Assembly (NCBI GenBank): GCA_003648125.1
Contig: QMOE01000228.1
Coordinates: forward strand, 1-5,133
DNA: 5,133 nt
From: Chloroflexota bacterium
Lineage (GTDB): Bacteria; Chloroflexota; Anaerolineae; B4-G1
Direction: 5' to 3'
A model generated the notes under the pieces. It saw only the letters and a program-made list of their open reading frames with translations. It made no database searches and was not told the DNA's origin. This document shows positions 380 through 2,075 of the stretch, piece after piece. Each line of letters starts with the position of its first letter. Position 1 is the stretch's first letter. The position numbers and the translations under genes are program-made.

Positions 380-408
380 TTGACATTTCGCCGATTGTAT
401 GGCATACT
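380..408 (+). promoter_or_regulatory. Sigma70-type promoter of tRNA-His (and probably hisS)
   Basis: A perfect -35 box TTGACA (380-385) is followed, after 17 bases, by CATACT (403-408), which matches the -10 consensus at four of six positions. Transcription would begin near 415, about 16 bases before the tRNA. I see no terminator between the tRNA and the hisS leader, so this promoter probably also drives hisS. Confidence 0.75.
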
Positions 409-430: not shown

Positions 431-504
431 GGTGGACGTAGCTCAATGGTTAGAGCTCTGGCCTGTGGAACCAGAGGTTGCGGGTTCAAGTCCCGTCGTC
501 CACC
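431..504 (+). tRNA. tRNA-His (anticodon GTG)
   Basis: All four arms fold. The acceptor is GTGGACG (432-438) with CGTCCAC (497-503). The D stem is GCTC (441-444) with GAGC (453-456). The anticodon stem is 458-462 with 470-474, anticodon GTG at 465-467. The T stem is GCGGG (480-484) with CCCGT (492-496), loop TTCAAGT. G at 431 and C at 504 form the G-1:C73 pair that is the identity element of bacterial tRNA-His, so the gene is given from 431. CCA is not encoded (CAG follows). The last anticodon-stem position pairs C462 with A470, a C-A mismatch (31-39). The tRNA lies about 250 bases upstream of hisS on the same strand, so tRNA and cognate synthetase are probably on one transcript. Confidence 0.96.
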
Positions 505-536
505 CAGGTTTGATCACCTCACACGAGTCGAAAACA

Positions 537-644
537 ATGTCCTGCAAGAACCCCTCCCCAATCTTTTCAATGGCTGGCATACAGCGGCGCAATCTGCGCT
601 CACATCATCATCACCATACCGGCCACGCGCGAAGGGGACTCTGA
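537..644 (+). CDS. Putative His-rich leader peptide of hisS attenuator
   Basis: This is a 35-codon ORF whose only notable feature is a run of five His codons (603-617: CAT, CAT, CAT, CAC, CAT), with a sixth His codon at 624-626, just before its TGA stop (642-644). Chance runs of five codons for the amino acid of the downstream synthetase are very unlikely. Ribosome stalling at such runs is the known sensor of his operon leaders in enteric bacteria. The product would have no function of its own; its translation would report the charging of tRNA-His. The start is uncertain. ATG at 537 has only a weak GAG nine bases upstream, and an in-frame ATG at 570 would give 24 codons without a clear Shine-Dalgarno. 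The His codons, the stop and the overlap with the antiterminator arm are the same for both starts. Confidence 0.75.
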   Translation: MSCKNPSPIFSMAGIQRRNLRSHHHHHTGHARRGL

Positions 645-719
645 CAGAACAGTCTTCCGCACCGTAACGAGAGTTGCCTCAAGCGTGGAATGATTTTACG
701 CATCCACGCTTTTTGTTTT
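603..719 (+). promoter_or_regulatory. Candidate histidine attenuator controlling hisS
   Basis: Two mutually exclusive folds can be drawn. Terminator: 681-689 with 703-711. Antiterminator: CCACGC (623-628) with GCGTGG (683-688), continued inward by G631-C680, AGG (633-635) with CCT (677-679), and GACTCT (637-642) with AGAGTT (670-675, one G-T pair). The antiterminator 5' arm begins 5 bases after the five-His run and reaches the leader stop codon. A ribosome stalled on the His codons would leave much of this arm free, allowing the antiterminator and hisS transcription. A ribosome that reaches the stop would cover the arm, so the terminator forms. The pairings are seen in the sequence; the switching behaviour is inferred by analogy with enteric trp and his attenuators. 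I see no T-box signature, so the tRNA is probably sensed through translation rather than directly. Confidence 0.75.
681..719 (+). terminator. Intrinsic terminator in the hisS leader (attenuator)
   Basis: AAGCGTGGA (681-689) and TCCACGCTT (703-711) form a perfect 9-bp stem with a 13-base loop. T710-T714 and, after one G, T716-T719 follow. It sits 33 bases before the hisS start codon. A strong terminator between a promoter and an essential gene only makes sense if it is conditional. Confidence 0.88.
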
Positions 720-752
720 GCAATGAATCCTGCCAACCCAGGAGGTACAGAT

Positions 753-2075
753 ATGGCGAAAAAAATAGCGCCCAAACTGCCGCGCGGAATGCGGGACATC
801 CTGCCGCAGAAAATGATCCAACGACAGTATGTCGTGAGGATCATCCAGGAAACATTTGAGGAGTTTGGCTTCGAGCCGCTGCAAACTCCAGCGGCCGAAC
901 TGGAAGAGACACTGAAGGGCAAGTACGGCCCCGACGCGGAGCGACTGATTTACGATGTCGGTCACAAAGGCGGAAAGGAGAGACTCGCCCTACGCTACGA
1001 CCTCTCGGTGCCTCTATGCCGTGTGATCGCCCAACACCCAGAGTTGACCAAGCCATTCAAGCGGTATCAGATTGCACCGGTTTGGCGGGCCGAGCGGCCA
1101 CAAAAGGGGCGCTATCGCGAGTTCTACCAGTGCGACGCCGACACCGTCGGCTCAGCCAGTATGTTGGCCGACGCCGAGATCATTAACGTCACCTGCAAAA
1201 TCCTGACCCGGCTGGGGTTCAAAAAGTTCGTGATAAACATCAATAACCGCAAGATCATCACCGGCATTGGTCAGTTCGCCGGCGTGCCAGACGAGTTGCT
1301 GGGAGGACTGTACCGCTCCATTGACAAGCTGGACAAGATCGGACTGGCAGGGGTCAGGGCAGAACTGGGCAAGACGCTGATCCCCGATGCAGTGATTGAG
1401 CGGATGATCGAGTTCCTGCAAATCGGCGGCAGCAACGAGGAAATCCTGACCCAACTGCGCGGGTGGCTGGCCGACTATCCCGACGCGCTCGCGGGCGTGA
1501 CCGAGTTGGAGGAAATGATTGGCTACCTGGAAGCGATGGGTGTCTCAGAAACGTACTACCAGATTGTGCCAGCGATGGTGCGCGGGTTAGAGTATTATAC
1601 CGGCCCTGTCTACGAGACGATAGTAAAAGAGCCTAAAATTGGCAGCATCACCGGCGGCGGGCGCTACGACGAACTGGTGGGGATGTTTTCCAACCGCAGT
1701 TACCCGGCCACCGGTGCCACCATCGGTATCGAGCGCATCATTGACGTGATGGAAGAGCTAGAGATGTTCCCGCCGGAGGTGGGAAAAACGGTCACTCAGG
1801 CATTGGTCACCCAGTTCAACCTGGATATGGTGGGCGAGTCGCTAAAGCTGGCTTGCGAGCTACGCCGGGAGGGATTGAACACCGAATTGTACTTTGAAAA
1901 CAAGCCGCTGGGCAAGCAAATTCGGTACGCGCTGAAAAAAGGTATCCCCTACGTCCTAGTCCTGGGACCGGACGAAGCGGCGACCGGACAAGTAGCAATC
2001 CGCAACCTGCAACTGGGGGAGCAAGAGACTGTCCCGCGCGATAAAGCCGCCGCTCGAATCAAAGCTTGGCAATAA
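753..2075 (+). CDS. hisS: Histidyl-tRNA synthetase (HisRS)
   Basis: This 440-residue class II synthetase charges tRNA-His with histidine in the cytoplasm. Visible signatures are the motif 2 region around residues 104-127 (RYQIAPVWRAERPQ, then GRYREFYQCD), the histidine-binding motif RGLEYYTG (277-284), the glycine-rich TGGGRYDELV (300-309) and motif 3 GATIGIERI (321-329). The C-terminal anticodon-binding domain spans about 347-440. Length is normal for a bacterial HisRS. The start is ATG at 753, because AGGAGG (740-745) lies 7 bases upstream and the protein then begins MAKKIAPKLPRGMRD, the usual HisRS opening. An in-frame ATG at 690 lies inside the leader terminator and is rejected. RGLEYYTG carries Glu where most bacterial enzymes have Asp (RGLDYYTG). 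The gene follows its own tRNA and a His-codon attenuator and ends in an intrinsic terminator, so it appears to be the only full-length protein gene of its transcript. Confidence 0.97.
   Translation: MAKKIAPKLPRGMRDILPQKMIQRQYVVRIIQETFEEFGFEPLQTPAAELEETLKGKYGPDAERLIYDVGHKGGKERLALRYDLSVPLCRVIAQHPELTKPFKRYQIAPVWRAERPQKGRYREFYQCDADTVGSASMLADAEIINVTCKILTRLGFKKFVININNRKIITGIGQFAGVPDELLGGLYRSIDKLDKIGLAGVRAELGKTLIPDAVIERMIEFLQIGGSNEEILTQLRGWLADYPDALAGVTELEEMIGYLEAMGVSETYYQIVPAMVRGLEYYTGPVYETIVKEPKIGSITGGGRYDELVGMFSNRSYPATGATIGIERIIDVMEELEMFPPEVGKTVTQALVTQFNLDMVGESLKLACELRREGLNTELYFENKPLGKQIRYALKKGIPYVLVLGPDEAATGQVAIRNLQLGEQETVPRDKAAARIKAWQ

Follow-up and report, generated by a model that had tools for sequence, protein, structure and literature searches.

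The window, by which we mean the whole stretch of 5,133 nucleotides that was analysed, carries on its forward strand a tRNA-His gene (GTG; positions 432..505) and, downstream of it, hisS (753..2075), which begins at ATG 753 and encodes a histidine--tRNA ligase of 440 aa. With 388.2 bits, the protein exceeds the NCBIfam cut-off for hisS (286.75 bits), and the Shine-Dalgarno sequence of the gene, GGAGG, lies at 741..745. On the 5' side of the tRNA gene we predict a sigma-70-like promoter (TTGACA-17-CATACT, 380..408), which is a consensus match only and the sole such match on the plus strand within positions 1-1200. An earlier note on this DNA had proposed a Chloroflexota origin, in agreement with the protein matches, one of which, at 86% identity, is named Chloroflexi.

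The His-codon reading frame between tRNA-His and hisS

Between the two genes lies a short open reading frame that contains five His codons in a row (CAT CAT CAT CAC CAT, 603..617), a putative sensor, and a sixth His codon (CAC, 624..626), and that ends in TGA at 642-644. These features had been described correctly in the earlier note, and only the start requires amendment. From ATG 537-539 the frame (537..644) encodes 35 aa, MSCKNPSPIFSMAGIQRRNLRSHHHHHTGHARRGL, but it is open upstream as far as ATG 399, across the tRNA gene, which makes the start at 537 uncertain and a matter of choice. We prefer the second ATG (570..644), from which a peptide of 24 aa is encoded, MAGIQRRNLRSHHHHHTGHARRGL, because by eye its beginning resembles that of the leader at a related locus, L088 (MSGLQPFRR...). 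Neither ATG 537 nor ATG 570 is preceded by a Shine-Dalgarno sequence. Among 20,000 shuffled versions of the 174-nt spacer that kept its dinucleotide composition, a run of at least five His codons in any frame arose with a frequency of 0.00015, and neither strand of the window holds a second His run of this length.

The leader stop is followed, 36 nt downstream, by a predicted intrinsic terminator (681..720). In folding, it consists of a hairpin at 681-711, with a 9-bp stem, a bulge and 2 further pairs, and then TTTGTTTTG, a T-rich tail that extends to 720. A consensus terminator scan of positions 1-1200 returned nothing, probably owing to the loop limit of that scan. The spacer as a whole (506-752) folds no differently from its shuffles (z 0.06), and its overall structure is therefore no evidence. 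Two features by which an attenuator may be recognised, a short ORF with cognate codons and an intrinsic terminator before the structural gene, are present in the window, the terminator as a prediction.

Recurrence in the class and in control sets

A third such feature is the recurrence of the cognate codons in related genomes. For this comparison we used the class of genome L048 (Anaerolineales bacterium HSG24), which we took to be Anaerolineae, and found a hisS match in 371 of the 396 genomes drawn from it. The window and 116 relatives, chosen mainly by similarity among the matches listed, gave 117 hisS loci (the relatives being L003, L005, L006, L081-L153 and L178-L217, with L081-L084 from the same genomes as L001, L002, L004 and L048); these loci share ancestry, and the counts that follow overstate their independence. 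A strict terminator was present within 130 nt of hisS at 39 of the 117 loci, and upstream DNA was too short at 3. At 49 of the remaining 75, another gene ends within 130 nt upstream.

At each terminator locus we searched for an ORF whose end lies 10-65 nt upstream of the terminator, scored it by its His count per 9 codons, and repeated the search on 40 shuffles. At least two His codons were found at 25 of the 39 loci (shuffle mean 4.70) and at least three at 22 (shuffle mean 0.70, maximum 3). At least four were found at 14 loci, against a shuffle mean of 0.03, and at least five and at least six at 8 and 3 loci, respectively, with a shuffle mean of 0 in both cases. Cognate His codons thus recur in related genomes, at 22/39 loci by the measure of at least three per nine. 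Other residues reached at least four of nine less often (Ser at 7 loci; Ala, Leu and Asn at 1 each), and at five or more only Ser was found, at 2 loci. The Ser count may in part reflect the same CAT runs, since CAT read out of frame gives Ser and Ile codons. This terminator-anchored test supersedes a previous one over 300 nt that ignored the position of the terminator, in which at least four codons in 9 were His in 11 of 74 relatives, the shuffles giving 0.40. An argument from a preference for CAT over CAC was dropped, as the leaders do not differ from hisS in this respect (P=0.41).

Several controls gave little or nothing. At least four His per 9 codons were found in 1 of 71 regions lying 600-900 nt upstream and in 0 of 74 on the reverse strand. 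For the phylum, a draw of 121 genomes, 31 of them unexamined, supplied 90 hisS loci, 89 from genomes outside the class sample; a terminator was present at 4 of the 90, and a His leader preceded it at one (L302), possibly through transfer or as an independent case. In other phyla, mostly Bacteroidota, 8 of 73 hisS loci had a terminator and none of those 8 had a His leader. Within a single order of 20 genomes, no Phe-rich leader was found at 19 pheS loci (one of them truncated; best count 3/9) and no Trp leader at 8 trpE loci, and 14 ilvB loci gave a combined Ile/Leu/Val count of up to 5/9, which is not telling.

Where a terminator but no tRNA-His gene precedes hisS, at least two His codons were found at 22 of 28 loci. 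At five of the six misses (L114, L137, L141, L153 and L192) an upstream ORF ends within 77 nt of hisS, which places the hairpin within a gene or next to one; at the sixth, L005, our script chose another hairpin, and a His-rich ORF precedes a second one. By removing L135 from the 25 loci with at least two His codons and adding L005, we arrived at a hand-picked set of 25 leader loci, in all of which the leader stop lies 23-54 nt from the terminator.

The picture is different where tRNA-His is present. The earlier note had expected that, if its idea was right, the His run, its frame and its distance to the terminator would be kept upstream of hisS in related genomes. Across the class the ORF and its spacing did recur; among the closest relatives compared, the leader was absent, and just 3 of the 13 tRNA-His-linked hisS loci (the window, L087 and L088) have one. 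Proteins of 80-87% identity to the window's HisRS are P0002-P0004 and P0006. The best full-length matches compared, L085 and L086 (65-66% over the whole protein), have neither terminator nor leader before hisS; L084 (69% across the best segment) carries a hairpin and a pair of tRNA-His genes but no leader; and at L168 (a 74% fragment) another gene ends 9 nt upstream. Eleven of the terminator loci have a tRNA-His gene, 3 with a leader and 8 with a strict terminator alone, and two further tRNA-His loci, L084 and L117, have no strict terminator in range and no leader.

We also observed that tRNA-His, a hairpin and hisS follow one another, with no His leader found, at ten loci (L081, L084, L093, L100, L106, L113, L115, L116, L117 and L119), where co-transcription with partial readthrough is possible.

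These tRNA-His-linked loci bear on an account that we consider unlikely, namely that the window's hairpin is merely the terminator of tRNA-His, that hisS is expressed by readthrough, and that the His run is due to chance or is a relic in this lineage. This account is favoured by the 10 of 13 linked loci that lack a leader, among which 8 have a strict terminator within range, and by the thermodynamic weakness of the window's switch, which is described below. Against it stand the rarity of a five-His run in the shuffled spacer and the two relatives L087 and L088, each of which combines an ORF rich in His (3 of 9 codons) with a CCACGC strand like that of the window.

Predicted pairing between the leader and the terminator

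Four strands on the forward strand of the window are relevant to a possible switch. The first (571..577) can pair with 619-625, which places the His codons in the loop; this hairpin is the best fold of 560-640, and its probability ranges from 0.02 to 0.86 in other pieces. The second, CCACGC (623..628), lies in the last codons of the leader and is a putative antiterminator strand, as it pairs with the third, GCGTGG (683..688), the core of the terminator 5' arm. The fourth, CCACGC (704..709), is the core of the 3' arm.

A segment of the leader can pair with the terminator 5' arm over 6-9 bp in the window and at L087, L088, L090, L094, L096, L098, L103, L118, L120 and L121, beginning 13-25 nt upstream of where the stop codon ends (52 nt in L088). 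In the G250 order such pairing is possible at 8 of 9 leader loci, the exception being L122. Over all 25 hand-picked loci, with misses counted, the combined P is 2e-5, with individual values above 0.4 at 11 of the 25. The 6-bp match of the window is by itself not significant (P=0.137). In an energy-based test of pairing, P was up to 0.05 at 9 of 38 loci and 0.15 in the window.

We then modelled folding with a ribosome, given a 13-nt edge, positioned either at the first His codon or at the stop. The mean modelled probability of the terminator was 0.66 for the former and 0.96 for the latter (Wilcoxon P=0.0002); part of this effect arises because a stalled ribosome leaves more RNA free. A full switch was seen at seven loci (L096, L123, L127, L128, L136, L138 and L139), where the terminator probability was 0.00-0.02 with the ribosome stalled and 0.91-0.99 with it at the stop, and where, L136 (fraction 0.13) apart, no shuffle out of 30 reached so low a value. 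Over the 25 loci together, stalled values did not differ significantly from those with shuffled spacers (P=0.07; shuffled mean 0.90).

The window itself shows no switch at equilibrium: the complete terminator has probabilities of 0.91 and 0.92 for the two ribosome positions (0.96-1.0 in a second run of the model). Before the 3' arm is made, the pairing of 623-628 with 683-688 has a probability of 1.0 when free RNA starts at 610-622; it cannot form once free RNA starts at 628, in which case the 5' arm pairs elsewhere in part (0.27-0.80). Given this model, antitermination in the window would therefore have to be kinetic.

The attenuator proposed in the earlier note thus fares unevenly. The His ORF, its position ahead of a terminator and its association with hisS are found again in relatives much more often than shuffles would give, and in the window the predicted antiterminator, of 6 bp, is beaten by the terminator at equilibrium. 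This weakness would also suit a route in which the leader senses His but acts by other means, for example Rho-dependent polarity, translational coupling or mRNA stability, so that the hairpin has only a share in the effect, as would L131, where a His-rich ORF is present and no terminator was found near hisS. We consider such a route quite improbable, as the terminator lies 23-54 nt after the leader stop at all of the hand-picked loci.

Our preferred reading, to which we assign a probability of roughly three in four, is that the charging of His-tRNA is sensed here by a ribosome-mediated transcription attenuator, which controls hisS. RNA polymerase would start before tRNA-His and transcribe that gene and then the leader. 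With charged His-tRNA plentiful, the leading ribosome would translate the His codons, reach the stop and cover 623-628, and the hairpin at 681-711 would end transcription, leaving mainly tRNA-His as the product. With charged His-tRNA scarce, the ribosome would stall early in the His run, leaving 623-628 free to pair with 683-688, and transcription would run on into hisS. At the level of the class, leader-peptide attenuation of hisS is well supported by comparison of sequences; the window's own copy likely works, a case weaker than that for the class.

The leader loci also suggest how such transcripts may begin. At 10 of the 25 (L090, L096, L098, L120, L121, L122, L123, L203, L211 and L215) a possible leader start has a -10-like box 8-11 nt upstream, these starts having been chosen by eye and the count having no shuffle background. 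With the box so close, transcription would begin at the start codon or close to it, and the leaders at these ten loci may be translated from leaderless or nearly leaderless RNA. Two architectures can be distinguished, one with a -10-like box near the leader start and the other with tRNA-His placed first; the window, L087 and L088 combine tRNA-His and leader.

Known regulators and a possible wider His regulon

T-box control of synthetase genes has in common with the proposed leader that it senses tRNA charging and acts by antitermination; the T-box RNA binds tRNA directly. That hisS is under T-box control here is a reading to which we give scarcely any credence. No match to RF00230 was obtained for the window (E up to 1) or for 10 hisS loci with a leader (gathering score), the latter being a weak test, as T-boxes before trpE in these bacteria miss that score too. 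Those trpE matches, obtained at 4 of 4 loci of one related order in a permissive scan (L349, L350, L352 and L353; E 1.5e-15 to 4.9e-19, below the Rfam gathering score), speak for T-boxes in the lineage, and 5 trpE loci had no T-box at the gathering score. In addition, the available part of PMC2494555 places T-boxes in Dehalococcoides, for the ile-tRNA ligase gene (ileS) and trp genes, and makes no mention of leader peptides in Chloroflexi.

The predicted control of a hisS paralogue by a leader in bacilli offers the nearest comparison. The earlier note knew of no description of the window's arrangement, but the accessible portion of PMC2965389 predicts a His leader peptide before hisS* (a paralogue of hisS) and before hisZ in bacilli. 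There, as here, a short His-codon ORF and a predicted premature terminator precede a hisS-family gene and hisZ. The two systems, which we liken by description, differ in phylum, in the place of the window's leader behind tRNA-His, and in the -10-like box so near the leader start at 10 of our 25 loci. The mechanism is therefore a known one, predicted earlier before the hisS paralogue of bacilli; what is new is the phylum and the place behind tRNA-His.

Other His leaders differ in the genes that they govern. The his operon leader of enterobacteria (RF00514) likewise has a His-codon leader, alternative hairpins and a terminator, as set out in the available text of PMC9413887, but it governs His biosynthesis, whereas the window's leader precedes a synthetase gene; no match to RF00514 was found in the window (E up to 1) or at 20 loci (gathering score). 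As far as its available text goes, the same paper also lists candidate His attenuators in the Bacillus cereus group, some Eubacteriales and Erysipelotrichales, with leader peptides that have three to five consecutive His codons just before the attenuator structures; these belong to Firmicutes and to histidine metabolism operons, and a term search of the main text found no mention of hisS. The available parts of PMC3766115 and PMC4833913 contain no account of hisS being attenuated by a leader in Chloroflexi, and a search of titles and the beginnings of abstracts, with subscription papers mostly outside its scope, found among the papers listed no report of leader-peptide attenuation in Chloroflexota.

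We also considered hisZ, whose candidates were the weaker hisS-like matches (25-29% identity) in the G250 order, plus L154. All five proteins scanned pass the TIGR00443 cut-off for hisZ. Among 14 loci examined, comprising L154 and 13 of the 16 listed in the G250 order (L160-L165, L169, L171 and L173-L177), an upstream ORF with at least three His per 9 codons was found at 13, the exception being L164. These leaders, which also favour the attenuator reading, are often of the form KHHHxxGVxR; downstream of them a GGGGTGA:TCACCCC hairpin and then a terminator are common, the two showing no overlap by eye. The trpE T-box matches described above come from the order in which leader peptides precede the his genes.

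A fuller picture can be drawn from these observations, which we hold tentatively, inclining slightly against it in its entirety. One transcript would carry the whole loop of His charging, namely tRNA-His, a leader that reads its charging, and the synthetase; tRNA-His would be produced regardless of termination at 681-711, and 3' processing of the tRNA would supply the 5' end of the leader RNA. The window would then be a special form of an Anaerolineae regulon in which hisS and hisZ are governed by leader peptides, many of these translated from leaderless or almost leaderless RNA, in a lineage that uses T-boxes for trpE.

If attenuation by the leader is correct, amino-acid leader-peptide control extends to Chloroflexota, and the order of tRNA, leader and synthetase forms a compact feedback unit. 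One lineage would then have a T-box for trpE and leader peptides for His genes, which would make the reason for the replacement of one sensor by another a testable question. Such leaders would also account for small ORFs that are easily missed.

Elsewhere in the window, positions 2235-2425 contain two matches to the glycine riboswitch aptamer (RF00504), 5' of aminotransferase-like and phosphoglycerate-dehydrogenase-like genes. There are also two pairs of imperfect direct repeats, at 50-99 and 198-247 (82%) and at 314-361 and 2116-2163 (85%), the members of the second pair preceding the tRNA-His unit and the glycine riboswitch, respectively.
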